Below, one piece after another: positions 30,166 to 57,236 of a stretch of 64,000 nucleotides of DNA (the stretch's first letter is position 1; every line of letters begins with the position of its first letter). This stretch comes from Herminiimonas contaminans. GTDB lineage: Bacteria; Pseudomonadota; Gammaproteobacteria; Burkholderiales; Burkholderiaceae_D. A program made the translations under genes and the position numbers. The notes under the pieces were generated by a model, which saw nothing but the letters and a program-made list of their open reading frames with translations, had not been told where the DNA came from and made no database searches. The stretch spans positions 124,001 to 188,000 of the forward strand of contig NZ_JADOEL010000004.1 in assembly GCF_015645465.1 (NCBI RefSeq). Direction: 5' to 3'.

Positions 30166-30189
30166 ATGTAAAAGTTTGATCCGGGTCAA

Positions 30190-30217: not shown

Positions 30218-30253
30218 CGCGTTGTAGTTTGTTGCACCCGTTGTAGAAGTAAA

Positions 30254-33452: not shown

Positions 33453-33554
33453 GCTGTTGGCAGCGGCAGGGTCATTTATGTGTGGGATTGGCAGATAAAG
33501 CGATTATCGAATATCCTTGCTGCCTTCAATGTCTACACAATTAAAGGATTTACC

Positions 33555-37644: not shown

Positions 37645-37646
37645 GC

Positions 37647-38522: not shown

Positions 38523-38534
38523 TAAGTAGTCCTG

Positions 38535-38592
38535 ACACTCCCCATGCATGGGGAGTGTTATCCCTACAGCAAATACCCAGTGTTTGCTGTAG
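38535..38592 (+). terminator. Double hairpin after sucD
   Basis: First stem ACACTCCCC (38535-38543) with GGGGAGTGT (38550-38558). Second stem CTACAGCAAA (38564-38573) with TTTGCTGTAG (38583-38592). Both are perfect; T-runs are short, so termination may be partial. Confidence 0.6.
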
Positions 38593-38739
38593 AGATAGTT
38601 AGCAAATGCAAATGAAGTAGATGTCGCAAGTGCGCGTATGCGCACCGGAATGTGATCGCGCCATAGCGCTGGTCTGCCGTCGGTTCTGCTGCTTGCCTTT
38701 GCTAACAGTACAAGTTTCGAAATCTTAAGAAAGCAAAAA

Positions 38740-39507
38740 ATGTCAAAACGTTGGGTACGGTTTAGTCACGCAGGTAACACACAGTTCGGTACGCTTGAAG
38801 GCGACAACATTCAAGTTCACACCGGCGATATGTACGCTAACCCGGTTAAAACAGACACCGTGTTGAACATCAATGACGTCAAAGTCTTGATGCCAGCACA
38901 ACCAACCAAAATCATCGCTATGTGGAACAATTTCCACGAACTGGCGAAGAAATTGAACCTGGCAGATCCAGCAGAACCGCTGTACCTGATCAAGGCACCT
39001 AATTCCTACCTGAACCCAGGTGAAACCATCCAGAAGCCGCCGACAGACGACAAAGTCGTGTTCGAAGGCGAGCTCGGTATCGTTATCGGCAAAACTGCTA
39101 AAGCAGTGTCGGAAGCGGACGCGATGGACTATGTATTTGGTTACACCGTTGCAAACGACGTTACCGTTGCAACTATCCTGAATCGTGATGAATCGTTTGC
39201 ACAATGGGTGCGCGCTAAAGGTCTGGATACCTTCTGCCCGTTCGGCCCGACGATTGCTACCGATCTGGATCCGACCACATTGGTTGTTAAAACTGTCCTC
39301 AACGGCGATGTTCGTCAAAACTATCCAATTAGCGATATGCGTTTCTCCACGCAGCAATTGGTAAGCATGATTTCCGCCGATATGACGCTGTTCCCAGGCG
39401 ACATCATCCTGTGCGGCACCTCGGTAGGTGTCGGCTCGATGAAGCCAGGTAGCGTCGTGGAAGTTGAGATTGCTGGTATCGGCAAGCTCACAAATGATTT
39501 TAAATAA
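38740..39507 (+). CDS. Fumarylacetoacetate hydrolase family protein
   Basis: A 255-aa FAH-fold enzyme. Metal-binding residues are in FEGELGIVIGKTAKAVS (E-x-E pattern) and FGYTVANDVTVATIL. The C-terminal GDIILCGTSVGVGSMKPG is the family signature. The family includes hydratases, acylpyruvases and oxaloacetate decarboxylases, so the substrate is open. Codon bias is like oxc/gcl. It is followed 19 bp later by a PanE-like gene. Location between sucCD and the transporter suggests an organic-acid role. Confidence 0.88.
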   Translation: MSKRWVRFSHAGNTQFGTLEGDNIQVHTGDMYANPVKTDTVLNINDVKVLMPAQPTKIIAMWNNFHELAKKLNLADPAEPLYLIKAPNSYLNPGETIQKPPTDDKVVFEGELGIVIGKTAKAVSEADAMDYVFGYTVANDVTVATILNRDESFAQWVRAKGLDTFCPFGPTIATDLDPTTLVVKTVLNGDVRQNYPISDMRFSTQQLVSMISADMTLFPGDIILCGTSVGVGSMKPGSVVEVEIAGIGKLTNDFK

Positions 39508-39526
39508 TAGTGGCGAGGTAAATAGT

Positions 39527-40537
39527 ATGAAAATTGCAATTATTGGTGCAGGTGCTATCGGCGGTTACGTTGGCGTCAAATTGGCGCTGGCTGGTGAAGA
39601 CGTAACTTTCATCGTACGTGGTGCGAATCTGGAAGCTATCCGTAAAAACGGCGCTAAATTGATCATGCACGACGGTTCCGAACACGTCGCTGCAAACGTC
39701 AAGGCAACCAACAACTACGACGAAGCTGGTCCGCAAGACATCATCGTCCTGGCAATGAAAGCGCATCAACTCGAAGCGATTGCTGACGACCTGCCTAAGC
39801 TGATCGGCCCAGAAACTGTCATCGTCACGATGCAAAACGGTATTCCTTTCTGGTACTTCCACAACCACGGCGGCAAACTGGCTGGCACACGCGTAGAAAG
39901 CGTAGACCCAACCGGCAAGATTACTTCCAAGATCCCTGCTGATCGCGTTTTGGGTTGTGTTGTATACCCTGCGTCGGAATTGATCGCTCCAGGCGTCATC
40001 AAACACATCGAAGGCGACCGTTTCCCTATCGGCGAACTGGACGGCTCGACCAGCGAACGCGCAACCCGTGTTTCGGAATGCTTCACCAACGCTGGCTTCA
40101 AATCGCCAGTATTGGACAACATCCGTTCGGAAATCTGGCTGAAATTGTGGGGCAACCTGACATTCAACCCGATCAGCGCGCTGTCGCACTCGACCCTGCA
40201 AGACATCTGCCAATACCCGCTGTCGCGTGAACTGGCTGCTGCAATGATGACCGAAGCGCAAACCATCGCGCACAAACTGGGCATCGAATTCCGCGTTACG
40301 CTCGAGAAGCGTATCGCTGGTGCAGAAAAAGTCGGCAAACACAAAACATCGATGTTGCAAGACGTTGAAGCCGGTCGTGATCCTGAGATCGACGCATTGG
40401 TAGGTTCGGTAGCAGAACTCGGCCGCCTGACAGAAACACCTACGCCACATATCGATACAGTGTACGCACTGGTCAAATTGCTGGCGAAGACCATGAATGA
40501 AGAGACTGGCCAAGTCAAACTGCAAAAAGTCGCTTAA
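39527..40537 (+). CDS. Ketopantoate reductase-like protein (ApbA/PanE family)
   Basis: A 336-aa ApbA/PanE-family oxidoreductase with NADPH motif IAIIGAGAIGGYVGVKLA. The conserved Lys in LKLWGNLTFNPISAL is the catalytic region of the family. PanE makes pantoate for CoA, but longer paralogues act on other 2-keto acids. The start MKIAIIGAG has a GAGGT ribosome site. It is operonic with the FAH-family gene. A true PanE role would support CoA supply; an organic-acid reductase is an equal possibility. Confidence 0.85.
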   Translation: MKIAIIGAGAIGGYVGVKLALAGEDVTFIVRGANLEAIRKNGAKLIMHDGSEHVAANVKATNNYDEAGPQDIIVLAMKAHQLEAIADDLPKLIGPETVIVTMQNGIPFWYFHNHGGKLAGTRVESVDPTGKITSKIPADRVLGCVVYPASELIAPGVIKHIEGDRFPIGELDGSTSERATRVSECFTNAGFKSPVLDNIRSEIWLKLWGNLTFNPISALSHSTLQDICQYPLSRELAAAMMTEAQTIAHKLGIEFRVTLEKRIAGAEKVGKHKTSMLQDVEAGRDPEIDALVGSVAELGRLTETPTPHIDTVYALVKLLAKTMNEETGQVKLQKVA

Positions 40538-41037: not shown

Positions 41038-41082
41038 TTGACCTAGGTCAAGAAGTTTTTGGAGGAATGGTCACACTATCCT
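41038..41082 (+). promoter_or_regulatory. Crp/Fnr-type palindrome upstream of tctC
   Basis: CTTGACCT-AGGTCAAG is a perfect 16-bp palindrome. It shares TTGACC-NN-GGTCAA with the sites before oxc, frc2 and fdh. The -10 is less certain: CACTAT (41074), ACTATC or TATCCT are candidates. Confidence 0.6.
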
Positions 41083-41208
41083 CGGAAAACAAAAGTAACT
41101 TTAAGTTACGTAGAAGGCATCGTTGGCCGCACGGTGCTAGTGCTCACAAGGCACCCTGACGCGGCAAGTAGCACCGTAGTTAAAATTATTATTAACAGGA
41201 GACAAGCA

Positions 41209-42237
41209 ATGATCAAGGATTTCATTTCGCATTCGAAAAGCGGCATGGCAATGGCAACAGCCGGTGCATTTGCTGCAGTAGCTCTCGCTGCAACTCCAGC
41301 ATTCGCCGCTTGGGAACCAACCAAGCCAGTCGAATTTGTGGTTCCAGCAGGTACAGGCGGTGGCGCTGACCAAATGGCTCGTCTGATCCAAGGCGTGATC
41401 ATCAAAAACAAATTGATGAAAGAACCGCTGATCGTCGTCAATAAATCGGGTGGTGCCGGTGCTGAGGGCTTCCTTGGCATTAAAAATGACAAAGGCGATC
41501 CACACAAAATCATTATCACCTTGTCGAACCTGTTCACCACGCCTATGGCTACCGGTGTTCCGTTCAACTGGCGTGACATGACTCCAGTTGCGATGTTGGC
41601 GCTGGATCAATTCGTTCTGTGGACCAATGCAGAACAGCCATACAAATCCGCAAAAGAGTACATCGATGCGGTAAAAGCAGCCGGCCCTAACAAATTCAAA
41701 ATGGGCGGCACAGGCTCCAAACAGGAAGATCAGATCATCACTGTTGGCCTGGAAAAAGCAACCGGCACCAAGTTCATCTACATCCCATTCAAAGGCGGTG
41801 GTGAAGTTGCAGTGCAGTTGGTTGGTAACCACTTGCAATCAACGGTTAACAATCCTATCGAAGCAGTTTCGCAATGGCGCGCAGGTAAACTGAAAGCGCA
41901 ATGCGTATTCGATCATGAGCGTATGCCGTACAAAACCAAGGTTACCGAAACTCAATCGTGGAACGACATCCCAACATGTAAAGAAGCCGGTATCCCTACC
42001 GACTACACCATGTTGCGCGGCATCTTTATGCCTGCAGGTGTAACTCCTGATCAGCTGGCATTCTACGTTGACCTGTTCAAAAAGGTACGTGAAACAGCTG
42101 AATGGAAGGACTACATGGAAAAAGGCGCGTTCAACACGACCTTCAAAACTGGTAACGACTTCAAAGTCTGGCTGGAAGCAGCAGAGAAGCAACACGCTAC
42201 TCTGATGCAAGAAGCAGGCTTCATGGCGAAGAAGTAA
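41209..42237 (+). CDS. tctC: TctC-type periplasmic substrate-binding protein
   Basis: A 342-aa solute receptor of the tripartite tricarboxylate transporter (TTT/Bug) family. It has a long signal peptide (MIKDFISHSKSGMAMATAGA onward, cleavage after TPAFA). The mature protein begins AWEPTKPVEFVVPAGTGGGA, the family opening, and contains PFKGGGEVAVQLVGNHLQST. The start has AGGAG; the frame is open further upstream but without a signal. It is the first gene of tctCBA. The ligand could be a di- or tricarboxylate; oxalate is suggested only by context. Confidence 0.93.
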   Translation: MIKDFISHSKSGMAMATAGAFAAVALAATPAFAAWEPTKPVEFVVPAGTGGGADQMARLIQGVIIKNKLMKEPLIVVNKSGGAGAEGFLGIKNDKGDPHKIIITLSNLFTTPMATGVPFNWRDMTPVAMLALDQFVLWTNAEQPYKSAKEYIDAVKAAGPNKFKMGGTGSKQEDQIITVGLEKATGTKFIYIPFKGGGEVAVQLVGNHLQSTVNNPIEAVSQWRAGKLKAQCVFDHERMPYKTKVTETQSWNDIPTCKEAGIPTDYTMLRGIFMPAGVTPDQLAFYVDLFKKVRETAEWKDYMEKGAFNTTFKTGNDFKVWLEAAEKQHATLMQEAGFMAKK

Positions 42238-42342
42238 TCAACATCGGGATATAGGCAGTAAGCAGCACTACCGGCTCACGGTAGTGCTGGCTTCTGCGCG
42301 CCTATCCCAACTACATTGCAAAAATTTTCAGGAGCATTCCTC

Positions 42343-42864
42343 ATGGATCAGAATTCAGAATCCAGCGGTGGCGTTCGCACTGGCGTGGCCACTTATGTTG
42401 TCGAGGCAGTTGTAGCTGCTCTGCTGCTGTTGCTGGGTATTACAGTTGTTATTTCCAGTTGGAACCTGGGTGCAGAGTGGACCACCGACGGTCCAGGCTC
42501 AGGGTACTTCCCGTTCTATATCGGTCTCGTTATCTGTATATCGGGCGCGGGCACACTTTTTCAATCCCTTTTTGGTAAAGAAAAAAACACAGAAGTATTT
42601 GTCGATGGCGAGCAACTGAAGCGCGTACTGCAAGTCCTGATCCCAGCAATCATTTATGTTGGTGCGATCCAGGTCTTTGGTATCTACGTTTCGTCCGCTG
42701 TCTACATCGCACTGTTCATGATCTTGCTCGGCAAGTTCTCACCTATCAAAGCGGTTATCGCTGCAGTAGGCGTCAACACAGTCTTCTTCCTGATGTTTGA
42801 AGTGTGGTTCAAAGTGCCCCTGTACAAAGGGTCCATAGATCTTTTGAGCTTCCTCGGTTACTAG
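42343..42864 (+). CDS. tctB: TctB-type small membrane subunit
   Basis: A 173-aa four-span membrane protein of the TTT family; the start MDQNSESSGG follows an AGGAG site. Spans include VEAVVAALLLLLGITVVI and the paired C-terminal helices. The motif GPGSGYFPFYIGLVICISGAG (quoted here in part as GSGYFPFYIG) is typical of TctB. It lies between tctC and tctA. Confidence 0.9.
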   Translation: MDQNSESSGGVRTGVATYVVEAVVAALLLLLGITVVISSWNLGAEWTTDGPGSGYFPFYIGLVICISGAGTLFQSLFGKEKNTEVFVDGEQLKRVLQVLIPAIIYVGAIQVFGIYVSSAVYIALFMILLGKFSPIKAVIAAVGVNTVFFLMFEVWFKVPLYKGSIDLLSFLGY

Positions 42865-42936
42865 AGCCTGTGCGTGTCGATCATATCGATGTGCTAGCTA
42901 ACGAGTTAGATTGGAATTCAAGGAGTTATAAGTAAA

Positions 42937-44466
42937 ATGGAAGAAATCAATTCATTATTTCACGGGTTCGCGGTCATTATGACCCCCATGAATTTCTTGC
43001 TGATGGTCATCGGCATTGTATTGGGGGTTTTGATTGGCGTGTTGCCTGGTCTGGGTGGCGCAAACGGCGTAGCGATTCTGCTGCCGCTTACGTTCTCGAT
43101 GTCTCCGACATCTGCAATTATCATGTTGTCCTGTATCTACTGGGGTGCATTGTTCGGCGGTGCTATTACATCCGTCCTGTTCAATATTCCCGGGGAGCCG
43201 TGGTCAGTCGCGACGACCTTCGACGGTTATCCGATGGCACAAAAAGGCAATGCTGGTGAAGCACTGACCGGCGCGTTCACATCATCGTTTATCGGTGCGT
43301 TCGTTGCGGTTGTCATGATCACCTTCATGGCGCCACTGGTTGCTAAGTTCGCGTTGCGTTTCGGTCCTCCGGAATTCTTCTCGGTGTACCTGCTGACCTT
43401 CTGTAGCTTCGTTGGTATGGGTAAAGGTTCGCCGTTCAAGATCCTGGCTTCGATGGCTCTCGGTTTCGCGTTGGCTTCGGTCGGCATGGATACTGTGACT
43501 GGCCAATTGCGTCTGACCTTCGGTTTCGAAGAGTTCATGCGTGGCTTCGACTTCCTGATCGCTGTTATCGGTTTGTTCGGTATTGGTGAGATCCTGTTGT
43601 CGATGGAAGAAGGTCTGGCGTTCTCCGGTAAATCTGCGAAGATCGATCCAAAAGTCGTTTTCCAAACATGGAAAAAACTGCCGGCATACTGGGTTACTTC
43701 GGTACGCAGCTCGCTGGTTGGTATCTGGATGGGTGTTACACCAGGCGGCGCAACTCCAGCATCGTTCATGGCTTATGGTCTGGCCAAGAAGATGTCGAAA
43801 AACGGTTCCAAGTTCGGTACCGGTGAGCTCGAAGGTGTGGTCGCTCCTGAAACCGCAGCGCATGCTGCAGGTACAGCTGCATTGCTGCCTATGCTGGCAC
43901 TGGGTATCCCAGGTTCGCCAACAGCAGCGGTCTTGCTCGGCGGCTTGCTGATCTGGGGTCTGCAACCTGGTCCATTGCTCTTCGTTGAGCAAAAAGACTT
44001 CGTTTGGGGCCTGATCGCCAGTATGTATCTGGGTAACCTGGTTGGTCTGCTGGTTGTGTTGACCACAGTGCCACTGTTTGCTTCGATCCTGCGTATTCCA
44101 TTCTCGATCATTGCACCAGTGATTATCGTGATCTGTGCGATCGGTGCTTACACCGTTCACAACGCGATGTTCGATATCTGGCTGATGGTTGTGTTTGGTG
44201 TGGTTGGTTATCTGTTCAAGAAACTCGACTACCCACTGGCACCGCTGGTTCTGGCATTGGTTCTGGGCGACAAGGCAGAAGATTCGTTCCGTCAAGCGAT
44301 GTTGACATCGCAAGGCGACGTATCGGTCATGTTCTCCAACCCGCTGGTTGGTAGCATCACTGGCCTGGCATTGATCATGTTGTTCTGGCCACTGATCTCG
44401 CGTCTGATCGCAAAAGTTCGTCCACCAAAAGTTGACGAGTTTGCTGATGAGCGTCCAGTAGATTGA
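42937..44466 (+). CDS. tctA: TctA-type large membrane subunit
   Basis: A 509-aa, about 12-span transport subunit of the TTT family. It has the TctA opening GVLIGVLPGLGGANGVAILLP, given here as VLPGLGGANGVAILLP, and ALGIPGSPTAAVLLGGLLIW in the second half, both hallmark repeats. An AAGGAG ribosome site precedes it. With TctB and TctC it forms a secondary, binding-protein-dependent importer. Codon bias is high, as in the oxalate genes. Confidence 0.94.
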   Translation: MEEINSLFHGFAVIMTPMNFLLMVIGIVLGVLIGVLPGLGGANGVAILLPLTFSMSPTSAIIMLSCIYWGALFGGAITSVLFNIPGEPWSVATTFDGYPMAQKGNAGEALTGAFTSSFIGAFVAVVMITFMAPLVAKFALRFGPPEFFSVYLLTFCSFVGMGKGSPFKILASMALGFALASVGMDTVTGQLRLTFGFEEFMRGFDFLIAVIGLFGIGEILLSMEEGLAFSGKSAKIDPKVVFQTWKKLPAYWVTSVRSSLVGIWMGVTPGGATPASFMAYGLAKKMSKNGSKFGTGELEGVVAPETAAHAAGTAALLPMLALGIPGSPTAAVLLGGLLIWGLQPGPLLFVEQKDFVWGLIASMYLGNLVGLLVVLTTVPLFASILRIPFSIIAPVIIVICAIGAYTVHNAMFDIWLMVVFGVVGYLFKKLDYPLAPLVLALVLGDKAEDSFRQAMLTSQGDVSVMFSNPLVGSITGLALIMLFWPLISRLIAKVRPPKVDEFADERPVD

Positions 44467-44592: not shown

Positions 44593-44696
44593 GCTCGAAT
44601 TTTGGTGGTATGGTTACCCGCAGAGCAGGGTAGTCGGACTTAAAGGTAGTGTTGATTGATTTGCCGTGCATGTATTCCATAACCAAGGAGATAGCT

Positions 44697-45586: not shown

Positions 45587-46195
45587 TCAGATTTTGCCTT
45601 GATGCTTCAGTCGGCTCAGTGTTTCAGGCGAAAGATTCAGGTAAGACGCCAACTCTTTCTTCGGAATACGGTCAAACAGTTCCGGATGCTTGCGTACGAA
45701 GCGTTGTACGCGGCCAGGAGCGTCGAGCAAGTGCAAGGTGATGGTGTGAGCCATGATCTCGCTCATCAGGTGCATGACGTCATGCTCGAAGGCTTGCTTG
45801 ATGTGCTCATGCTTGTCGATGAAAGCGATCCATTGCAGTAAAGGCAACTTCACTACACGCGCTTTTGTCACACAGATAATGCTGTAAGGAGTCGGGGTTT
45901 TCAGTCGCCACGCCGCATAACTAGTCTCCATGCTACGTTCATCAGCAAAACGCAAAATCATTTCCTTTGCTTGCTGATTAGTAACTACGCGCTTCAGGAT
46001 ACCGTCAAGAATGAAATATTGCTCCATTTCATGTACGCCCTGATGCAGCAGGAAGTCGCCTTTAGGGCAATCTACGACGAGCAAATGCGGTTCCAGCTCC
46101 GCCCATTCGCTCTCAGTCATGTCTTTTAAGACAAGATTTTGCTTGAGCTGAACGCGAATGACATTTCGTTCTGGGTGGTTATCTACGGTCGGCAT
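45587..46195 (-). CDS. Crp/Fnr family transcriptional regulator
   Basis: A 202-aa regulator: N-terminal cyclic-nucleotide-binding-like beta-roll (CPKGDFLLHQGVHEMEQYFI at 43-62) and a C-terminal HTH (DRIPKKELASYLNLSPETLS then RLKHQGKI). The recognition helix has E-T-L-S-R, matching the E-x-x-S-R of FNR, which reads TTGA half-sites. No N-terminal cysteine cluster is present, so it is not an oxygen-sensing Fe-S FNR. It is divergent from oxc and is the best candidate to bind the TTGACC-NN-GGTCAA sites. The effector is unknown. Confidence 0.92.
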   Translation of the reverse strand: MPTVDNHPERNVIRVQLKQNLVLKDMTESEWAELEPHLLVVDCPKGDFLLHQGVHEMEQYFILDGILKRVVTNQQAKEMILRFADERSMETSYAAWRLKTPTPYSIICVTKARVVKLPLLQWIAFIDKHEHIKQAFEHDVMHLMSEIMAHTITLHLLDAPGRVQRFVRKHPELFDRIPKKELASYLNLSPETLSRLKHQGKI

Positions 46196-46257
46196 TTACA
46201 AGATATATAGATATAAAAGACAGAAGGGTGGGCGGGGTCGATATCATGCGATGAAAA

Positions 46258-46300
46258 TTGACCGGGGTCAATGATCGAAGCGCAGGCAGATCGATATGAT
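46258..46300 (+). promoter_or_regulatory. Crp/Fnr-type operator and -10 for oxc
   Basis: ATTGACC-GG-GGTCAAT (core 46258-46271), then 23 bp, then TATGAT (46295-46300). The palindrome centre is about 42 bp upstream of the expected start near 46307, the class II activator position. No -35 hexamer is visible. Confidence 0.75.
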
Positions 46301-46347
46301 ACGCCCACTTGGATGGTCTATGCATAAAAGCGTTGACTGAAGGGTAT

Positions 46348-46378
46348 CTCTAAAAACCAACCGGTCTGGTTTTTAGAG
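46348..46378 (+). other. Leader hairpin of oxc
   Basis: CTCTAAAAACCA (46348-46359) and TGGTTTTTAGAG (46367-46378) form a perfect 12-bp stem about 40 nt into the predicted oxc transcript. A degenerate copy is in the frc2 leader. Confidence 0.55.
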
Positions 46379-46481
46379 GTGCCTTACAAGTGTAGCAACA
46401 GCCGCAGCAAGAGCACGGCAACCACGGTATTGAGCAAGACTGCTCAACCTTTATTGAAATTAACGAAGAGAACATTTCATT

Positions 46482-48194
46482 ATGAAAAACGACATTCAAG
46501 AAGTAGCAGAAGGCGTAGAGCTGACAGACGGCTTCCATCTGCTGATGGAAGCGCTGGAAATGAACGGCATCACCAACATCTATGGTCTGCTCGGCATCCC
46601 AGTTACCGAAATCGGTCGTATGTGGCAAGCCCGTGGTAACAAGTTCTTCAGCTTCCGTAACGAGCAAAATGCAGGTTACGCAGCTTCGGTAGCCGGCTAC
46701 TTGACCAAAAAACCAGGCGTTTGCGTGACTGTTTCCGCACCTGGCTTCCTGAACGGTTTGACCGCACTGGCTAACGCGACCACCAACTGCTTCCCAATGA
46801 TTCTGATTTCCGGTTCTTCGGAACGTGAAATCGTCGACCTGCAACAAGGCGACTACGAAGAAATGGATCAGTTGAACATCGCTCGTCCACATTGCAAAGC
46901 TTCGTTCCGTATCAACCGTACTGAAGACATCGGCGTTGCAGTTGTTCGCGCAATCCGTACCGCATTGTCGGGTCGTCCAGGCGGCGTATATCTGGACATC
47001 CCAGCACGTCTGTTCAGCACCACCATGAGCGCTGAAGAAGGCCAAAAATCGTTGTTCGTTCCAGTTGATCCAGCTCCAGCACAACTGCCAGCACCATCGG
47101 CTGTTTCGCGCGCTGTTGACCTGATCAAAGGCGCTAAAAAGCCATTGATCTTGCTCGGCAAAGGTGCTGCTTACGCTCAATGCGACGCAGACATCAAAGC
47201 ACTGATCGAAGAAACCGGTATCCCATTCACACCTATGTCGATGGCAAAAGGTCTGGTATCCGATACTCACCCACAATGCGCAGCTGCTGCTCGTTCGATG
47301 GTCTTGCAAGAGTCCGACGTTGTTATCCTGATCGGTGCACGTCTGAACTGGTTGCTGGCACACGGCAAAGGCAAAACATGGGGCGGCGCGAAGAAATTCG
47401 TACAAATCGATATCCAAGCTAACGAAATCGACAGCAACGTACCTATCGCTGCACCATTGATCGGTGACATCGAGTCTTGCGTCAACGCATTGCGCGCTGG
47501 CCTGAAAGGTGCTGCTAAGCCAACAGAATGGATGAGCGCTATTGCTGAACGTGCTAACGGCACCAAAGCTAAACTGGCTACCAAACTGACCACAGCTACT
47601 CCAGTCATGAACTACTTCAACTCGCTCGGCGCAATCCGTGACGTGTTGAAAAACTACCCAGACATCACCCTGGTTAACGAAGGTGCAAACACCCTCGACA
47701 ACGCACGTATGGTCATCGACCAATACCTGCCACGCAAACGTGTAGATACAGGTACATGGGGCGTAATGGGTATCGGTATGGGTTCGGCTGTTGCAGCTGC
47801 AGTAGAAACCGGCAAACCAGTCGTTGCAATTTGCGGCGACAGCGCATTCGGTTTCAGCGCAATGGAATACGAAACAATCACACGTTACAACCTGCCAGTA
47901 ACCGTCATCATCATGAACAACGGCGGTATCTACCGCGGTGACGAAGCGAACCCAGAACACCAAGTATCGTGCATGATTTTCAATCCGAAAACCAAGTACG
48001 ACCAATTCAGTATCGCTCTGGGCGGTGAAGGTGTTCGTGCTGAAACTCCAGAAGCGTTGGCAAAAGCACTGGAAGCTTCCCTGAAATCGGGCAAGCCAAC
48101 CATCATCGACGCGATCATCGATCCAGCAGCTGGTGTTGAATCCGGCCGTATCGGTAACCTGAACATCGTCAGCACGATCGGTAAAAAGAAGTAA
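46482..48194 (+). CDS. oxc: Oxalyl-CoA decarboxylase
   Basis: A 570-aa ThDP enzyme converting oxalyl-CoA to formyl-CoA and CO2, close in length to the Oxalobacter formigenes enzyme. The catalytic Glu61 is in [16 protein letters not shown]; the ThDP/Mg motif is [16 protein letters not shown] with NNGGIYRG. Codon use is strongly optimised. It is the central gene of oxalate catabolism and is followed by frc1 after a terminator. Expression is predicted to depend on the Crp/Fnr site at 46258. Confidence 0.97.
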
Positions 48195-48353
48195 TACTGG
48201 GATAGAGCCAAGGCGCAAGTCATGGCTTTGTGTGGCACGGTCAGAGTAGGGCGACCGTGCCATGCACTTGACACTGCTTGTGCCACCGCACTAGACTAGA
48301 ACGTTAAAGAACTCCAAGTAGTATTGGATTAAAGCCATGTAAATGGCGCGATT

Positions 48354-48381
48354 CCACTCAGAGCTCTCTGAGTGGTTTTTC
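48354..48381 (+). terminator. Terminator between oxc and frc1
   Basis: CCACTCAGAG-CT-CTCTGAGTGG with a T5 tract. A second inverted repeat, TTCCTGAA/TTCAGGAA (48384-48391, 48402-48409), follows in the frc1 leader. Confidence 0.85.
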
Positions 48382-48444
48382 ACTTCCTGAAGTATTCAAA
48401 TTTCAGGAATCAAGTTAAACGATTGATAAGGAAATCTACCAATC

Positions 48445-49704
48445 ATGAGTCAAACATTACCATTAGCAGGCGTTAAGATCATCGATTTCACCCACGTACA
48501 AGCTGGTCCTGCATGTACACAGCTGTTGGCTTGGTTCGGTGCTGACGTTATCAAAGTAGAGCGTCCAGGTTCGGGCGACGTTACCCGTTCGCAATTGCGC
48601 GACATCCCAGGTAAAGACGCTCTGTACTTCACAATGCTGAACAGCAACAAGCGTTCGCTGACACTGGATACCAAAACTCAAGAAGGTAAAGAAGTTTTGG
48701 AAAAGCTGATCAAAGAATCCGACGTTATGGTTGAGAACTTTGGTCCTGGCGCTTTGGATCGTATGGGCTTCTCTTGGGCACGCGTTCAAGAATTGAACCC
48801 AGGCATGATCATGGCATCGGTTAAAGGCTTCAGCGATGGTCACCACTACGAAGACTTGAAAGTCTACGAAAACGTTGCTCAATGTGCTGGCGGCGCTGCT
48901 TCGACCACTGGTTTCTGGGACGGCCCACCAACTGTTTCGGCAGCTGCTTTGGGTGACTCCAACACCGGTATGCACCTGGCAATCGGTATCTTGACAGCTC
49001 TGATGGGTCGTCAAAAAACCGGTAAAGGTCAAAAAGTTGCGGTATCGATGCAAGATGCTGTTCTGAACCTGTGCCGCGTTAAACTGCGCGATCAACAACG
49101 TCTGGACAAAATCGGTTACCTGGAAGAGTACCCACAATACCCACACGGCAAATTCACTGACGTAGTACCACGCGGCGGTAACGCTGGCGGTGGCGGTCAA
49201 CCAGGTTGGGTTCTGAAATGTAAAGGTTGGGAAACCGATCCTAACGCATACATCTACTTCACCATCCAAGGTCACGCTTGGGCGCCTATCTGTAAAGCAT
49301 TGGGTAAAGAAGAGTGGATTGAAGATCCTGCATACAACACTGCAGAAGCTCGTCAAGACAAGATTTTCGACATCTTCGCAACTATCGAAGAATGGCTCAA
49401 AGACAAAACCAAATTTGAAGCTGTCGACATTCTGCGTAAGTACGACATCCCATGCGCACCAGTTCTGTCGATGAAAGAATTGGCTGCAGACAAATCGTTG
49501 CGCGAAAGCGGTTCGATCGTTGAAGTTGAGCACAAAGACCGTGGTGAAAAATACCTCACCGTTGGTAGCCCAATCAAATTCTCCGATATGAAACCAGAAA
49601 TCGTTGGTTCGCCAACTCTGGGTGAGCACACCGATGAAGTTCTGGCTCAACTGGGTTACACCAAAGAGCAGATCGCTGCATTGCACGCTGCTAAAGCAGT
49701 TTAA
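48445..49704 (+). CDS. frc: Formyl-CoA:oxalate CoA-transferase (copy 1)
   Basis: A 419-aa family III CoA-transferase moving CoA from formyl-CoA to oxalate. The catalytic Asp171 (Asp169 in O. formigenes) is in [15 protein letters not shown]. The glycine loop is [11 protein letters not shown], identical to the characterised enzyme. The N-terminus is [17 protein letters not shown]. It follows oxc, completing the oxalyl-CoA cycle. It is about two thirds identical by eye to copy 2. Confidence 0.96.
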
Positions 49705-49734
49705 GAATTTCTTAAACTCGTTTTAGTCAGTAAG

Positions 49735-49767
49735 AACGGCGCCCGATTCGGGCGCCGTTTTTTTTCG
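49735..49767 (+). terminator. Terminator after frc1
   Basis: AACGGCGCC-CGATTCG-GGCGCCGTT followed by T8. Confidence 0.92.
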
Positions 49768-49978
49768 TCTTTGCTGTCCTTAAGCCATGTTGCGTTGCAA
49801 GAATTGCTTGTGAATGATTGTCTATTTGCTCACGACTACCTGGCAAAAATCTCGTCTTGCCGTGCGTTGATAAGTTGACTAAAAAATGCCGGAAATGAGG
49901 TGTGGCAACGGATGAAATGGCCGCAAAAAACGGGGTGGGCAGAGAAGCATCGATGGGGCGAATATCATGCTGTGAAAA

Positions 49979-50021
49979 TTGACCGGGGTCAATGATGGAA
50001 GCGCGAGCAGGTCGATATGAT
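49979..50021 (+). promoter_or_regulatory. Crp/Fnr-type operator and -10 upstream of frc2
   Basis: ATTGACC-GG-GGTCAAT (core 49979-49992), 23 bp, then TATGAT (50016-50021); the same spacing as at oxc, within a region that aligns to the oxc promoter from about 46244 to 46388. Confidence 0.7.
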
Positions 50022-50744
50022 ACGGCCACTTGTATTAGCTATAGCTAATGCGGAGTTGGCAGGGTATCTCTAAAAGCCTATAGCAAAAGACTTTCAAAGA
50101 TGCCTTACGCAGAAAGGCGGCACGCGTAAGAAATTGCCGGAATCGCCAGAGGGCATGTTGATTCAGAATAAGGCGTGGCTGGTGCCTGAGCCCGCGTACA
50201 GAAATGGTCCGGTAAGGAAAACGTGCTGTCAGTTTGGACTGCTTGCTGGTCCGGATGCTATCCTTGCGGATTGCGCTGCAAGCAAAGCGCAGAGTATGGA
50301 TCGTAGCCCTGCTGGTAGTAACAGCGGGGTAGTCGGAGAGGTTGAAGCGGCTGTTCCGGCCGCTCCCCGATGCATCCATATGCGTAGCGTATGTAATGAA
50401 TGAATTCCCCGGCAAAGACACTATCTACATCGGTGATGGTGGTGATGTCGTGACGATATCGGCACAAGCGGTTCGTCCACGTAATCCGGGAAAAGGAAGT
50501 TGCGTGTTATCAAGTGGTGGCGAGCAAGTCCTCGATCCATCATGCACTGCAGGCGCGTTACAGCGTGCCCCTGAGGCAGTGCAGAAACACGTATATCCGC
50601 AGTCATCTCTATCCGGGTAGATCCTGAATGTGTATGCCCCGGCTACGATGACTCTGACGATATATAAATAATTTTTTATTGGCTAGGTACTGCGCGAGTC
50701 GGCATGACTTGCTCGCGTTTTATTGCAAAAGATAGGAGTAGTTG
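50022..50744 (+). other. Long gene-free leader of frc2
   Basis: About 720 bp from the predicted start to frc2, with no recognisable gene in any frame. It holds ATTAGCTATAGCTAAT (50034-50049, perfect palindrome), a degenerate copy of the oxc leader hairpin (50066-50101) and a terminator-like hairpin just before frc2. It could be an RNA leader or the remains of a deleted gene. Confidence 0.5.
50693..50724 (+). terminator. Terminator-like hairpin just before frc2
   Basis: CGCGAG (50693-50698) and CTCGCG (50712-50717) followed by TTTTATT, only about 20 bp before the frc2 start codon. It could attenuate frc2. Confidence 0.6.
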
Positions 50745-51995
50745 ATGAGTAAGGCATTAAGCGGCTATCGCATTCTTGATTTCACACACGTGCAATCAGG
50801 CCCGACATGTACCCAGTTGCTGGCATGGTTTGGCGCGGATGTTATCAAGGTTGAGCGTGCAGGTGAAGGCGATGCAACACGCGGTCAACTGCGTGACATC
50901 CCTGAGGCAGACAGTCTCTACTTCACCATGTTGAACCACAACAAGCGTTCGATCACTCTGGATACCAAAAACCCGAAAGGGAAAGCAGTTCTGGAAACAT
51001 TGATCAAGGAATGTGACGTACTGGTAGAGAACTTCGCACCAGGCGCGCTGGATCGCATGGGCTTCACCTGGGAACGCATCAATGAACTCAACCCACGCAT
51101 GATCGTTGCATCGGTTAAAGGTTTTGGTCCTGGCCCATACGAGCACTGCAAAGTGTACGAAAACGTTGCGCAATGCGCAGGCGGTTCGGCCTCCACCACC
51201 GGTTTCGATGACGGCCCACCAATGGTAACCGGCGCACAAATCGGCGACAGCGGTACCGGCTTGCATCTGGCGCTGGGTATCCTGGCTGCGCTGTTGCAAC
51301 GTCACGCAAGTGGCCGTGGTCAAAAAGTTCTGGCTCCTATGCAAGATGCCGTGTTGAACCTGTGCCGCGTCAAGCTGCGCGATCAACAACGTCTGGAACG
51401 CACTGGCGTCATGAAAGAGTACCCACAATATCCGGACGTACCATTTGGCGACTCCGTACCACGTGCAGGTAATGCATCGGGTGGCGGTCAACCAGGTTCT
51501 ATCCTGAAATGTAAAGGTTGGGAAACGGATCCTAACGCCTACATCTACTTCATCGCTCAAGGTGCAGTATGGGCGCCGATCTGCAAAGTGATCGGTAAGG
51601 AAGAGTGGCTGACAGATCCAGAGTACGCAACGCCAGCATCGCGCTTGCCACACTTGAAAAACATCTTCGCAACGGTCGAAGAGTGGACCAAGACCATGAC
51701 CAAGTTCGAAGCTATGGACATCCTCAACAAGTTCGACATCCCTTGCGGCCCGATCTTGTCGATGAAAGAAATTGCTGAAGAGCCATCGCTGCGTGAAACC
51801 GGTACCATCGTTGAAGTGGATCATCCAGTACGCGGCAAGTACCTGACAGTCGGTAACCCGATCAAACTGTCGGACAGCCCTACAGATGTGACACGTTCGC
51901 CATTGCTGGGTGAGCACACAGAAGAAGTTCTGGGTCAGCTCGGTTACAGTGCGGAAGACATCGCAGCTTTGCGTGCAGAAAAAGTCATTTCGTAA
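50745..51995 (+). CDS. frc: Formyl-CoA:oxalate CoA-transferase-like protein (copy 2)
   Basis: A 416-aa family III CoA-transferase paralogous to copy 1. The catalytic Asp is present in [14 protein letters not shown]. The glycine loop reads [10 protein letters not shown], so the first Gly of GGGG is Ser. The start ATG at 50745 has a TAGGAG site (a TTG one codon earlier is less likely). It may use another CoA donor, for example succinyl-CoA given the nearby sucCD; this is inference. Confidence 0.92.
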
Positions 51996-52037
51996 TTACA
52001 CCAGTTAGCGGCCTGTAACCAGGCTCTCGCTGCAAAG

Positions 52038-52070
52038 AAGCCTCTCCCTAACGGGAGGGGCTTTTTTTAT
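52038..52070 (+). terminator. Terminator after frc2
   Basis: GCCTCTCCC-TAAC-GGGAGGGGC with a T7 tract. Confidence 0.92.
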
Positions 52071-52241
52071 TGGTGTTAGGGAATGGCGCGACTTTCGATG
52101 TGTGTGCAGAGAGTTCAGCTGACGTCGCAAGCAAACCCGACAGCTTAATATATGTTTATTTCAGCCGATAAAAGCCTGCTGTGGAGCGCGCGCCTGTTTT
52201 TTGCGCTAGCATATAGAAAGTGGCTAAAAAAACGCCCTCCC

Positions 52242-52260
52242 AAATGAGAATGATTCCTTT
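52242..52260. promoter_or_regulatory. Fur-like box upstream of fdh
   Basis: AAATGAGAATGATTCCTTT has the same first half as the hemP box (AAATGAGAA). It lies about 90 bp upstream of the Crp/Fnr palindrome. Confidence 0.35.
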
Positions 52261-52345
52261 TACGGTGGAAATAAAGGAAGAAGCGGGATTTTCCTATCGT
52301 TTTTGCTGGCGGCGGTGCCATATGTACTATAAATCATGTGGAAAA

Positions 52346-52387
52346 TTGACCTTGGTCAATGTAGGGGCTAGGGCGCGCCGATAAGAT
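52346..52387 (+). promoter_or_regulatory. Crp/Fnr-type operator and -10 for fdh
   Basis: ATTGACC-TT-GGTCAAT (core 52346-52359), 22 bp, TAAGAT (52382-52387). It is preceded, as at oxc and frc2, by an ATCATG...GAAAATTGACC stretch. The centre lies at about -41.5. Confidence 0.72.
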
Positions 52388-52660: not shown

Positions 52661-54364
52661 ATGAACCACAAAGTCATTCCCATTGCAGTGCAAGAAGTAG
52701 TCAATACGAAGGAGCGCAAGCGCCAGGCGCCTAAAGGTCGTCGGGTTGATCCTGCTGCACTGGCTGAAGTACGTGAACTGTTGGGCGATGAGTCGCGTCA
52801 GGCAGATCTGCTGATTGAACATCTGCACAAAATCCAGGATAAATTCGGTCATCTGGCTTCCAGCCATCTGGCTGCTTTGGCGCAAGAAATGCGTCTGGCA
52901 CAAACCGAAGTATATGAAGTGGCGAGTTTCTACCACCACTTCGATATCGTTAAAGAAGGTGGCATTGCGCCGCAGGCATTGACCGTACGTGTATGCGACG
53001 GCTTGTCATGTGAAATGGCTGGTGCGAAAGATCTGCTGGCTAAATTGCCTAAAATTCTGGGCAAGGAAGTGCGCGTCATTGCAGCACCTTGCGTCGGTCG
53101 TTGCGAACAAGCTCCGGTTGCAGTGGTTGGTCAAAATCCTATCATCAATGCAACTTGCGAAGCGGTACAAACAGCAGTTGAGAAGAAAGAAATCGTGCAA
53201 GCTGAAGGCACGATTACTGACTTCAATGCATATCAAAGTGAAGGTGGCTACGCGCTGCTGAAAAAATGTGTTTCTGGTGAGCGCGATGTTGAGTCCGTCA
53301 TCAAAACCATGGAAGATTCCGGCCTGCGTGGTCTGGGTGGTGCAGGTTTCCCATCCGGTCGCAAATGGCGCATCGTACGTGGCGAAAAAGGCCCACGTTT
53401 GATGGCAGTCAATATTGATGAAGGCGAACCAGGTACATTCAAGGATCGCGTTTATCTGGAAAAAGATCCGCATCGTTTCCTCGAAGGCATGTTGATCGCC
53501 GCATGGGCGGTTGATATCCAGACCATCTATATCTACCTGCGTGACGAATATCACGGTTGCCGCACCATGCTGGAAGCGGAACTGGAGAAACTGAAAGCAA
53601 ATCCGCCTATCGCCAACATGCCGGAAATTTTCCTGCGTCGCGGTGCTGGCGCCTACATCTGCGGTGAAGAATCCGCGATGATCGAATCGATCGAAGGCAA
53701 GCGCGGTATGCCACGCCTGCGTCCACCATATGTGGCGCAAGTCGGTTTGTTTGGCCGTCCAACGCTGGAACACAACTTTGAAACCCTGTACTGGGTACGT
53801 GACATCCTGGAAAAAGGCGGTGAGTGGTTCACATCGCACGGCCGTAACGGTCGCAAAGGCTTGCGTTCGTACTCGGTCTCCGGTCGCGTTAAAAATCCTG
53901 GCGTCAAACTGGCTCCTGCCGGTATCTCGATTCAAGAGTTGATCGACGAGTACTGCGGCGGCATGCTGGATGGTCAAACCTTCTACGGTTACCTTCCAGG
54001 CGGGGCATCGGGCGGTATCTTGCCAGCTTCGATGAACACGATCCCTCTCGATTTCGATACCTTGCAACCATACGGCTGCTTTATCGGTTCCGCTGCGGTC
54101 ATCGTTTTGTCGGATAAAGATACAGCGGTTCAGGCAGCACGCAACATGATGGACTTCTTCAAGCATGAGTCATGTGGTCAATGCACACCGTGCCGCGTCG
54201 GTACTGCGAAGGCTGCAGATTTGATCAAAAAACCGAAGTGGGATGTCGGTCTGCTGGAAGATTTGTCGCAGGTAATGCGCGATTCGTCGATCTGTGGTTT
54301 GGGTCAGGCTGCGCCTAACCCTATCGACTGTGTCGTCAAGTACTTCCCGCATGAGTTGGCTTAA
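52661..54364 (+). CDS. fdhB: NAD-dependent formate dehydrogenase, diaphorase subunit (NuoE-NuoF fusion)
   Basis: A 567-aa fusion. Residues 1-160 are NuoE-like with the [2Fe-2S] cysteines in CDGLSCEMAG and CVGRCEQAP. Residues about 200-560 are NuoF-like: GLGGAGFPSGRKW (NADH/FMN site), GEPGTFKDR, and the [4Fe-4S] motif ESCGQCTPCRVG. The fused form resembles the beta subunit of the tungsten formate dehydrogenase 1 of Methylobacterium, rather than the separate FdsG and FdsB. It passes electrons from the catalytic subunit to NAD. It is followed by fdhA 31 bp later. Confidence 0.94.
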   Translation: MNHKVIPIAVQEVVNTKERKRQAPKGRRVDPAALAEVRELLGDESRQADLLIEHLHKIQDKFGHLASSHLAALAQEMRLAQTEVYEVASFYHHFDIVKEGGIAPQALTVRVCDGLSCEMAGAKDLLAKLPKILGKEVRVIAAPCVGRCEQAPVAVVGQNPIINATCEAVQTAVEKKEIVQAEGTITDFNAYQSEGGYALLKKCVSGERDVESVIKTMEDSGLRGLGGAGFPSGRKWRIVRGEKGPRLMAVNIDEGEPGTFKDRVYLEKDPHRFLEGMLIAAWAVDIQTIYIYLRDEYHGCRTMLEAELEKLKANPPIANMPEIFLRRGAGAYICGEESAMIESIEGKRGMPRLRPPYVAQVGLFGRPTLEHNFETLYWVRDILEKGGEWFTSHGRNGRKGLRSYSVSGRVKNPGVKLAPAGISIQELIDEYCGGMLDGQTFYGYLPGGASGGILPASMNTIPLDFDTLQPYGCFIGSAAVIVLSDKDTAVQAARNMMDFFKHESCGQCTPCRVGTAKAADLIKKPKWDVGLLEDLSQVMRDSSICGLGQAAPNPIDCVVKYFPHELA

Positions 54365-54395
54365 GCAGGTAGCCCCGGATTAAGGTGAAAAGATA

Positions 54396-57236
54396 ATGAA
54401 CGCAATTACCCGAAGCGAATTGGCACAGCTCGAAGTGCCTACAGTTACGTTTGAATTGAATGGTCGTGAAGTTACCGGCCGTGCAACCGACACGATCCTG
54501 ACCGTCGCCAAGCGCGAAGGCATAGAAATCCCGCACCTCTGCTTTAAAGAAGGTATGGACACTGCAGGTAACTGCCGCGCATGCGTCGTTGAAATCAACG
54601 GCGAACGCGTACTAGCACCATCCTGCTGCCGTAACCCGACCAACGGTATGAAAGTAAATACCGAAAGCGAACGTGCAGTGAAATCGCAGAAACTGGTATT
54701 GGAACTGTTGCAGTCCGATATGCCGGAAGCTGACTATACGCGCCACAATGAAGTGGACGACTGGGCAGAGAAAATGGGCGTAGGCAAACCACGTTTCACA
54801 GCACGTGAAAAAGTTGCCTATGACTACTCGCACCCTGCGATTGCGGTTAACCTCGACGCATGTATCCAATGTACACGTTGCGTACGTGCTTGCCGTGATG
54901 AGCAAGAAAACGACGTTATCGGCCTGGCATTCCGTGGTGATCACGCGAAGATCGTATTCGACATGGATGACCCTATGGGTGCATCGACCTGCGTAGCTTG
55001 CGGCGAGTGCGTACAAGCATGTCCTACCGGCGCGCTGATGCCAGCTCGTGACGTAGCATTGAACGTCCCTGACAAGCAAGTTGACTCCGTCTGCCCATAC
55101 TGCGGCGTCGGTTGCCAACTGACTTACAACATCAAAGACAACAAGATCCTCTACGTAGAAGGTCGCGATGGTCCCGCCAACCGTGAACGTCTGTGCGTTA
55201 AAGGTCGTTACGGTTTCGATTATGCAAACCATCCACACCGTCTGACCAAACCGTTGATCCGTCGCGCTGATGCACCGAAAACCGGTGACTTCATCATGGA
55301 TCCGGACCGTGTGATGGAAGTGTTCCGTGAAGCGACATGGGAAGAAGCGCTGGAAGCTGCCGGCGGTACTTTCGCAAAAATCCGCGACACACACGGCAAG
55401 AAATCGCTGGCTGGTTTCGGTTCGGCTAAAGGCAGCAACGAAGAAGCTTACCTGTTCCAGAAATTGGTACGTACCGGTTTCGGCAGCAACAACGTCGATC
55501 ACTGCACACGCTTGTGCCACGCATCGTCGGTTGTCGCTTTGCTCGAGGGTATCGGTTCGGGCGCAGTATCGAACCCTGTGATGGACGTGACCAAAGCAGA
55601 AGTTATCATCATCATCGGTGCTAACCCGACCGTGAACCATCCGGTTGCTGCAACCTGGATCAAAAATGCTGTCACCAACGGCAGCAAACTGATCGTTTGC
55701 GATCCACGTCGTACCGAAATGTCGCGTATCGCTCACCGCTTCATGCAATTCAAGGCGGATACCGACGTTGCTATGCTGAACGCGATGATGAACGTCATCG
55801 TGACTGAAGGTCTGGTCGACAAAGAGTTTATCGAAAGCCGTACCATCGGTTACGAAGAACTGCGTAAAAACGTTGAAGGTTACACACCTGAATTGATGGC
55901 GCCTATCTGCGGTATCGATGCAGAAACGCTGCGTTATGTTGCTCGTCTGTACGCAACTTCCAAAGCATCGATCATCCTGTGGGGCATGGGCGTATCGCAA
56001 CATATCCACGGTACCGACAATGCACGCTGCCTGATCGCTCTGGCATTGATGACTGGTCAAATCGGTCGTCCAGGTACAGGTCTGCACCCATTGCGCGGTC
56101 AAAACAACGTGCAAGGTGCTTCCGATGCTGGTCTGATCCCTATGGTGTATCCGGATTACCAAAGCGTGAGCGATCCGAAGATCCGTGCCAACTTCGCTAA
56201 AGCATGGAATATGTCGGAAGACTTGCTGGATCCGGAACCAGGTCTGACCGTGGTTGAGATCATGCACGCGATCACCGATGGCAAAATCCGCGGCTTGTAT
56301 GTCCAGGGCGAAAACCCTGCGATGTCCGATCCGGATGCTAACCATGCACGTGAAGCGTTGGCTACTTTGGATCATCTGGTCGTACAGGATATCTTCCTGA
56401 CCGAAACCGCTTACCTGGCCGACGTTATCTTGCCAGCAAGCGCATTCCCGGAAAAAACAGGTACCTTCACCAACACTGATCGTACTGTGCAAATGGGCCG
56501 TCAGGCATTGAACCCACCGGGTGAAGCCAAGCAGGATCTGTGGATCATCCAGCAAATGGCAAATCGCCTCGGTCTGGATTGGCAGTACAAGCATGTGTCG
56601 GAAGTATTCGACGAAATGCGCCACACCATGCCTAGCATCGCTGGTATCACATGGGAACGTCTGGAGCGTGAAGACTCCGTGACCTATCCATGCGAAAAAG
56701 AAGGCGATCCAGGTGAGCCAGTTGTGTTCGTTGACAGCTTCCCACGTGAATCCGGTCGTGCACGCTTTGTCCCTGCAGATATCATTCCTGCGGCTGAGCG
56801 TCCGGATCCAGAGTACCCGATGGTCCTGATCACAGGTCGCCAACTGGAACACTGGCATACCGGTAGTATGACCCGCCGTGCGACCGTGCTGGATTCGATC
56901 GAACCAGATCCTATTGCGCTGATCCACCCACTGGATCTGGCTGCTATGGGCGGCAAGCCAGGCGACATCATCACGCTGCAATCGCGTCGCGGTGAAGTTT
57001 CCCTGTACGCACGTGCTGATGATGGTTCGCCACGTGGCGCGGTATTCGTACCGTTCTGCTACTACGAAGCGGCGATTAACCGTCTGACGAATGCTGCGCT
57101 GGATCCGTTCGGTAAGATTCCAGAGTTCAAGTACTGCGCAATCCGCATTACCCTGGGTGGTACTGCTCCGGTTCAAACCAGCTACGGTGGCGGTCAGGCT
57201 TTGGTTAATCTGACGAATAGTCTGGCAACCAACTAA
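54396..57236 (+). CDS. fdhA: NAD-dependent formate dehydrogenase, catalytic molybdopterin subunit
   Basis: A 946-aa catalytic subunit oxidising formate to CO2. N-terminal NuoG-like [2Fe-2S] domain (HLCFKEGMDTAGNCRACVV), two [4Fe-4S] motifs (CIQCTRCVRACRDEQ and CVACGECVQACPTGAL), then the molybdopterin domain with CPYCGVGC. The metal-ligand residue is Cys in HCTRLCHASSV; the His that follows is also conserved. No selenocysteine codon is seen. The metal, Mo or W, cannot be told from sequence. Its maturation factor FdhD is encoded 1.2 kb downstream. Confidence 0.96.
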   Translation: MNAITRSELAQLEVPTVTFELNGREVTGRATDTILTVAKREGIEIPHLCFKEGMDTAGNCRACVVEINGERVLAPSCCRNPTNGMKVNTESERAVKSQKLVLELLQSDMPEADYTRHNEVDDWAEKMGVGKPRFTAREKVAYDYSHPAIAVNLDACIQCTRCVRACRDEQENDVIGLAFRGDHAKIVFDMDDPMGASTCVACGECVQACPTGALMPARDVALNVPDKQVDSVCPYCGVGCQLTYNIKDNKILYVEGRDGPANRERLCVKGRYGFDYANHPHRLTKPLIRRADAPKTGDFIMDPDRVMEVFREATWEEALEAAGGTFAKIRDTHGKKSLAGFGSAKGSNEEAYLFQKLVRTGFGSNNVDHCTRLCHASSVVALLEGIGSGAVSNPVMDVTKAEVIIIIGANPTVNHPVAATWIKNAVTNGSKLIVCDPRRTEMSRIAHRFMQFKADTDVAMLNAMMNVIVTEGLVDKEFIESRTIGYEELRKNVEGYTPELMAPICGIDAETLRYVARLYATSKASIILWGMGVSQHIHGTDNARCLIALALMTGQIGRPGTGLHPLRGQNNVQGASDAGLIPMVYPDYQSVSDPKIRANFAKAWNMSEDLLDPEPGLTVVEIMHAITDGKIRGLYVQGENPAMSDPDANHAREALATLDHLVVQDIFLTETAYLADVILPASAFPEKTGTFTNTDRTVQMGRQALNPPGEAKQDLWIIQQMANRLGLDWQYKHVSEVFDEMRHTMPSIAGITWERLEREDSVTYPCEKEGDPGEPVVFVDSFPRESGRARFVPADIIPAAERPDPEYPMVLITGRQLEHWHTGSMTRRATVLDSIEPDPIALIHPLDLAAMGGKPGDIITLQSRRGEVSLYARADDGSPRGAVFVPFCYYEAAINRLTNAALDPFGKIPEFKYCAIRITLGGTAPVQTSYGGGQALVNLTNSLATN

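Follow-up and report, generated by a model that had tools for sequence, protein, structure and literature searches.

A Crp/Fnr-type regulator and a shared palindromic operator at the oxalate genes of Herminiimonas contaminans and its relatives

The oxalate genes and their palindromes

The window analysed here, a stretch of 64,000 nucleotides from Herminiimonas contaminans, carries oxc, the gene of oxalyl-CoA decarboxylase (OXC), two formyl-CoA transferase genes (frc1 and frc2), a formate dehydrogenase (fdh) and the tripartite transporter tctCBA. Divergent from oxc lies the gene of a Crp/Fnr-type regulator, hereafter REG, and the palindrome TTGACC-NN-GGTCAA, which we consider as its operator, occurs before several of these genes. 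The features are collected in Table 1, where tctB, tctA and thiC are the names that we take these genes to have; likewise sucC, sucD, the FAH-family gene and the ketopantoate-reductase-like gene are presumed from their translations.

Table 1. Operators, promoter elements and genes of the window, with the support for each assignment.
Feature	Position	Strand	Remarks
Operator-like TTGATCCGGGTCAA before thiC	30176..30189		-10 TAGACT at 30212-30217, 22 nt
TPP (thiamine diphosphate) riboswitch, thiC upstream	30249-30357		Rfam RF00059, 60.1 bits
Operator TTAACCGTGGTCAA before sucC	36290..36303		one mismatch; -10 GACAAT at 36326-36331, 22 nt
sucC, sucD, FAH-family gene, ketopantoate-reductase-like gene (presumed)	36478..40537	+	translations
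Operator TTGACCTAGGTCAA before tctC	41038..41051		exact; weak -10 CACTAT at 41074-41079, 22 nt
tctC, tctB, tctA, tripartite transporter	41206..44466	+	Pfam TctC; tct genes recur beside REG
REG, Crp/Fnr-type regulator, 202 aa	45587..46195	-	Pfam cNMP_binding; invariant recognition helix E191-T-L-S-R195
REG -10 CATGAT	46243..46248	-	operator TTGACC (46271-46266, - strand) as -35, 17-bp spacer
Operator TTGACCGGGGTCAA between REG and oxc	46258..46271		exact palindrome
oxc -10 TATGAT	46295..46300	+	23 nt behind operator, class II spacing
oxc, oxalyl-CoA decarboxylase	46482..48194	+	NCBIfam TIGR03254, 885 bits (cut-off 739)
frc1, formyl-CoA transferase, downstream of oxc	48445..49704	+	NCBIfam TIGR03253, 721 bits
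Operator TTGACCGGGGTCAA of the (decayed TPP gene)-frc2 unit	49979..49992		exact; -10 TATGAT at 50016-50021, 23 nt
TPP-enzyme remnants (HACL/OXC-like)	50279..50668	+	tblastn, 61% over 74 aa and 49% over 57 aa
frc2, formyl-CoA transferase family	50742..51995	+	TIGR03253, 722 bits
Operator TTGACCTTGGTCAA before fdh	52346..52359		exact; -10 TAAGAT at 52382-52387, 22 nt
Formate dehydrogenase	52661..57236	+	fused NuoE/NuoF-like subunit 52661-54364; alpha subunit 54396-57236, TIGR01591, 781 bits

The initial annotation had placed the palindrome before oxc, frc2, fdh and tctC, and the scan of the window returned exact copies at all four positions. These are the only four exact palindromes in the genome of 4,038,814 bases, and they lie inside 11.3 kb. 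When up to 2 mismatches were allowed, the window held 12 matches against 2.36 expected, a number reached in none of 100 shuffles, and the reversed pattern gave no exact match in the window's genome. A chance origin of the sites was ruled out by the whole-genome count, the reversed pattern and the permuted palindromes described below. The genome has 19 matches with one mismatch, of which eleven were inspected: two were those at sucC and thiC, eight lay within open reading frames (ORFs), and the remaining one (L248) was dropped, because it stands 15 nt before an ORF start but its -10-like hexamer, TATATT at 22 nt, is found only on the other strand, where it faces a gene running towards the site. 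A two-mismatch match at 21094 was also dropped, as it lies inside a coding gene.

The distance between the palindrome and the -10 hexamer was measured in non-redundant contexts, accepting hexamers with at least 4 of 6 matches and with A2 and T6 fixed. A -10 lay at an offset of 22 or 23 nt downstream of the palindrome in 87 of 96 contexts at oxc, 20 of 21 at frc2, all 9 at a second TPP gene and 6 of 7 at frc1, while every other offset from 3 to 35 was seen in at most 3 of the 96 oxc contexts. The centre of the palindrome therefore falls at -41.5 or -42.5, which is the class II activator position put forward in the initial annotation; the spacings that it had read at oxc, frc2 and fdh were also recovered (Table 1). 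On the strand of REG, the commonest offset of the -10 was 9 nt (35 of 99 contexts), so that TTGACC of the operator would act as a -35, separated from the -10 by a 17-bp spacer. This REG-facing -10 accompanied 19 of 55 operators near REG versus 0 of 24 solo operators, so that it is not a mere flank of the operator. Because the operator would thus serve as the -35 of the REG promoter, autorepression of REG is predicted in those lineages whose promoter is built in this way, and not in all lineages.

The palindrome assigned to frc2 was confirmed, but it lies about 750 bp from frc2 and the remnants of another gene are found between them. In the relative G172 an intact second TPP gene (L067:4443-6194) occupies the interval between operator and frc2, and since the window keeps only remnants there, the operator at 49979 probably belonged to that gene originally. 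A search of the window's genome at E 1e-60 gave no intact copy of the second TPP enzyme. Collimonas loci mostly encode, opposite REG, a TPP enzyme with 24-25% identity to OXC in place of oxc itself; the operator lies in front of its gene and frc genes come after it. One exception is G061, with oxc opposite REG. The Collimonas enzyme is 64-66% identical (445 residues) to an Oxalobacter formigenes gene whose operator has one mismatch and is followed by TATGAT at 23 nt. It falls below the cut-offs of all the families listed at E 1e-80, the nearest being 'acetolactate synthase' and 2-hydroxyacyl-CoA lyase. The second TPP enzyme is operator-bearing in Collimonas, in one Herminiimonas relative and in O. 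formigenes, and decayed in the window (loci 50279-50668 of the window, L067:4443-6194, L080:10103-11869 and L264:1687-3015).

With respect to the remaining operators, that of fdh is a local addition: of 18 regions upstream of fdhB, the 4 with an exact copy belong to the window and three close relatives, to which it is confined. Among 63 non-redundant tctC upstream regions, the operator was found with no more than one mismatch in 40, of which 3 were exact, and with at most two in 50, mostly in the form TTGAC-N4-GTCAA. TTAACC-NN-GGTCAA, followed after 22 nt by GACAAT or CACAAT as -10, was present before sucC in 17 of 21 rows, corresponding to 9 of 11 distinct genomes, all 9 of the window's genus. 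Four of the seven thiC upstream regions had an operator with 0-1 mismatch and TAGACT at 22 nt, and the other three had two mismatches. OXC requires thiamine diphosphate. The oxalate genes of the regulon that had been proposed are thus retained and its fdh member is restricted to close relatives; the predicted regulon includes, newly here, sucCD, REG itself and the second TPP enzyme, and probably also thiC, whose place in it is less firm than that of sucCD.

Distribution of REG, oxc and the operator

Two genome sets were searched, a family set of 245 genomes and an order set of 399, together with 80 named REG loci that are the best of 409 stretches found. The family set gave 65 REG matches, of which the 63 strong ones were used for co-occurrence (the weak G143 and G040 were left out), and oxc calls in the order set were those above the curated cut-off. 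Redundant sequences were removed at 80-85% identity because the family and named loci overlap, as with G140 and Herminiimonas sp. KBW02.

In the order set REG was found in 76 genomes, oxc in 75 and both in 67 (Fisher p about 1e-56, a value overstated because the genomes are related). In the family set, strong REG matches occurred in 63 genomes, oxc in 53 and both in 49. Exact sites reached 0.543 per Mb in the 63 genomes with REG versus 0.138 in the 182 without it, the reversed control giving 0.052 and 0.089, respectively. The operator was recovered in nearly all the non-redundant regions upstream of oxc (n = 120: 81 exact, 111 with at most one mismatch, 119 with at most two) and of REG (n = 139: 84, 118 and 133, respectively), whereas 150 permuted half-site palindromes gave a mean of 0.013 exact matches at oxc and 0 at REG; this comparison omits eight REG-less oxc loci and keeps four REG-less Oxalobacter-like loci. 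Within the family set, an exact site was located within 450 bp at 48 of 63 REG loci and 44 of 54 oxc loci. In the eight oxc genomes of the order set that lack REG, the operator was absent from the 450 bp upstream of oxc in all eight, the best match having 4-5 mismatches.

The named loci agree with this distribution. Their hosts belong to Herminiimonas, Oxalicibacterium, Lacisediminimonas, Collimonas, Polaromonas, Ramlibacter, Caenimonas, Massilia, Duganella, Noviherbaspirillum and Gallionella. A site lies within 300 bp of REG in exact form at 62 of the 80 loci and with one mismatch at 16 more; as for the two misses, L170 is at a contig end and L162 has an exact copy further away, between frc1 and REG. 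Matches to oxc, oxc-like genes or frc were present at 76 of the 80, and at the other four (L160, L161, L167 and L169) the contig ends 163-514 bases upstream of REG. It had been suggested to look for co-occurrence in relatives, and that the idea should be given up if the palindrome were randomly spread or absent from relatives that keep REG and oxc. The outcome was in favour of the idea: the site tracks REG and oxc, being enriched where REG occurs and kept at oxc.

In O. formigenes (G073) the OXC shows no difference over 568 residues from structure 2c31, which we take to be O. formigenes OXC. Although 235 kb separate oxc from REG in this genome, four operators precede oxc; frc and REG are divergent, and the interval between the two contains two operators with one mismatch each. 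The four operators before oxc in G073 and G049 have 0-1 mismatch to TTGAC-N4-GTCAA and follow each other in exact 24-bp steps. The array is located at L129:9309-9394, plus a matching stretch of L130. A single operator is present in 33 of the 39 oxc upstream regions that come from outside the Oxalobacter-like loci.

The regulator protein

REG scored 30 bits with Pfam cNMP_binding (PF00027), just above the cut-off of 27.5, which assigns it a Crp/Fnr-type N-terminal domain. No other Pfam match was obtained at E 0.001 and no helix-turn-helix (HTH) domain was reported, PF13545 having missed REG in its own genome. The ETLSR motif noted in the initial annotation is present near the C-terminus (SPETLSRLKHQGKI), where the chain stops 7 residues past R195, and E191, T192, L193, S194 and R195 are invariant across 24 aligned REG sequences. 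This alignment (A1) excludes the wrong-frame row L128, which is included in one separate conservation count. In the AlphaFold model the N-terminal domain was mostly above pLDDT 90, and the HTH region was drawn as three helices with pLDDT 52-59. A Foldseek search with this model matched GlxR, Clr, DNR and CRP (E 3e-12 to 2e-10). By sequence, the first solved relative was 3dn7 (E 1.2e-12), a Crp-like protein of Cytophaga hutchinsonii, from another phylum, which aligned with REG to within 4 residues of both C-termini; DNR was the second (E 6.9e-7). The nearest named relative found was Herminiimonas sp. KBW02, with an identical REG (100%).

By comparison with the best known members of the family, REG shares with FNR of the Escherichia coli type the recognition helix E-x-x-S-R and the TTGA half-site, but the aligned sequences have no invariant or nearly invariant cysteine and so lack the [4Fe-4S] cysteine cluster of FNR; the operators also differ, TTGACC-NN-GGTCAA for REG and TTGAT-N4-ATCAA for FNR. 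With CRP it shares the cNMP-binding-like domain and the class II position near -41.5, but its half-site is TTGA instead of TGTGA and its chain ends 7 residues after the R195 of E-T-L-S-R. Taking the cAMP contacts of CRP to be E72, R82 and S83, the aligned positions 92, 102 and 103 of REG are occupied by S/T/A, T/A and P/S and do not retain these contacts. Judging from these residues, sensing of cAMP or by an Fe-S cluster is unlikely in REG. Residues R82, E90, Y93, W96 and R113 are invariant in the 24 sequences and may, as a speculation, form an anion pocket. A diverged copy of REG (31%) with an internal stop was observed in the Collimonas-type genome G143 (L128, L316), at the same place beside an exact operator.

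Proposed mechanism, alternatives and neighbouring genes

The operator, the gene sets behind it, their spacing and the co-occurrence with REG were established by computation. Very probably, REG is a dedicated activator of oxalate catabolism that acts through the shared operator in the class II position and recurs across relatives, as had been proposed in outline; the co-occurrence, the conservation at oxc and the fixed distance to the -10 support this interpretation. A REG dimer would read TTGACC-NN-GGTCAA through the E-T-L-S-R helix and, centred at about -41.5 or -42.5 in replacement of the -35 box, would recruit RNA polymerase. Its targets would cover uptake (tctCBA, the presumed oxalate importer), succinyl-CoA supply (sucCD, presumably), CoA transfer (frc) and decarboxylation (oxc), and it is plausible that succinyl-CoA is the CoA donor for oxalate; fdh, for the oxidation of formate, would be a further target in this lineage, and thiC, for the synthesis of thiamine, probably as well. 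The single operator between REG and oxc would activate oxc while covering the -35 of REG, and therefore REG should limit its own synthesis. As the signal, the cyclic-nucleotide-like domain might sense oxalate or one of the CoA esters of the pathway.

Several observations weigh against this interpretation. Four Oxalobacter-like genomes (G006, G124, G137 and G158) gave no REG in a profile search at E 0.01, yet oxc is still preceded there by an operator (0-1 mismatch) with a -10 resembling CATACT or CATAAT. In G006 the 34 kb around and beyond oxc, a region in which the related G093 encodes REG, contain no copy of it. Loss of REG or a replaced regulator is possible in these genomes. There are also genomes that have REG but not oxc, 9 of 76 in the order set and 14 of 63 in the family set; several of those inspected carry the second TPP enzyme and frc instead. 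At tctC, 2 of 18 contexts satisfied the stringent -10 test, the REG-facing -10 was limited to the 35 of 99 contexts given above, and the kinship of the genomes inflates the Fisher test. Genomes without REG show a slight excess of sites over the reversed control: from their 124 exact sites, 17 in 8 genomes (loci L228-L242 and L144) were inspected, of which 14 lay in ORFs of at least 148 aa, two in ORFs of 90-97 aa and one outside any ORF. Finally, it is from the geometry alone that we infer an activator in place of a repressor.

The initial annotation had known of no described regulator with this site, which does not hold: HcpR of delta-proteobacteria and of two cyanobacteria, also of the Crp/Fnr family, has the consensus wyTTGACnnnnGTCAArw (TTGACnnnnGTCAA) with the same palindrome core, TTGAC-N4-GTCAA, in an unrelated regulon (PMC1274295; the regulon is also described in PMC545781). 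It is unlikely, although we leave it a small chance, that REG is an HcpR- or DNR-like sensor of NO or redox state that happens to control oxalate genes. The matching sites and the rank of DNR among the solved relatives agree with such a sensor, but HcpR sites precede hcp, frdX and, in a cyanobacterium, norB (PMC1274295), whereas those of REG lie at oxc, frc, tct and sucCD, and the oxalate genes at 76 of the 80 named loci, the other four being near contig ends, argue against it (hcp, nir and nor genes were not searched for around REG). We consider it improbable that REG represses the oxalate genes until relieved by oxalate. The operator covers the REG promoter, where repression is expected by geometry at least, but at oxc, frc2, frc1 and the second TPP gene it replaces the -35 at a fixed 22-23 nt, in the class II activator position, and this fixed spacing speaks against a repressor because a repressor needs no kept spacing. 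Very improbable is the case in which an oxygen-sensing FNR binds the palindrome, the cluster is an anaerobic regulon and REG is a bystander: the window's genome encodes, together with REG, an FNR-like protein with the cysteine cluster and an E-x-x-S-R helix, and the FNR site TTGAT-N4-ATCAA (PMC1274295) shares TTGA...TCAA with the palindrome, yet FNR-like proteins are present in 178 of the 245 genomes while the sites are enriched where REG occurs, and 19 of 26 REG-carrying genomes without an FNR match at 1e-60 still have exact sites, G073 and G049 with their four tandem operators being both among the 26.

As to REG as activator of the oxalate genes, no natural Crp/Fnr-type regulator of oxc or frc was found among the matches listed in searches of open-licence PMC papers, which does not prove its absence from print. 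In O. formigenes, oxc, frc and OxlT were unchanged between growth phases, and oxc and frc were among the very highly expressed proteins (PMC4764995); the words Crp and Fnr do not occur in that paper. The oxc of E. coli is tabulated in a section on YbdO/CitR, a LysR-type regulator (PMC9068703), and O. formigenes genes have been placed under an FNR-driven promoter in engineered E. coli, which is not natural regulation (PMC8899768). In PMC8498331 'fnr' is part of a DOI, and in PMC7817697 cRP means rock phosphate. A bolder extension, which we offer tentatively and with less than even confidence, is that REG would be the first of a Crp/Fnr lineage re-using the nucleotide-binding fold to sense oxalate or oxalyl-CoA directly, and would control the degradation of oxalate in a large part of the Burkholderiales. 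In O. formigenes, which would be one of them, the four-operator array with 24-bp steps would pack dimers end to end for extreme oxc output.

Oxalate degraders shape the soil oxalate-carbonate cycle and the gut oxalate load, and O. formigenes, studied for kidney-stone prevention, shares the regulator and the operator. With a named regulator, an operator and a promoter geometry, the regulation of oxalate genes becomes directly testable, and a part for an oxalate biosensor is provided; the operators also flag further pathway genes, such as that of the second TPP enzyme.

Some other genes of the region deserve mention. A glyoxylate carboligase gene (gcl; NCBIfam) and further genes, which we take to read like a glycerate pathway, occupy 23699-28567 of the window with no operator of the REG type; as there is no site with up to 2 mismatches in 21108-30175, none precedes gcl at 23699. 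Of four distant exact sites inspected in genomes with REG, two (L243 and L247) lay inside ORFs, one (L244) between an frc gene and a gene that we presume to be quinone-oxidoreductase-like, and one (L245) before such a gene. The presumed counterpart in the window (33480-34532) has no upstream site with up to 2 mismatches. In all, this gene stands behind an exact operator in four relatives (L194, L226, L244 and L245), three of them with frc on the other side. Between tctA and REG, a fusion of a cytidylate-kinase-like and a BON domain (44649-45530) was observed in the window, and its homologues (48-95%) are found at that place in many loci.

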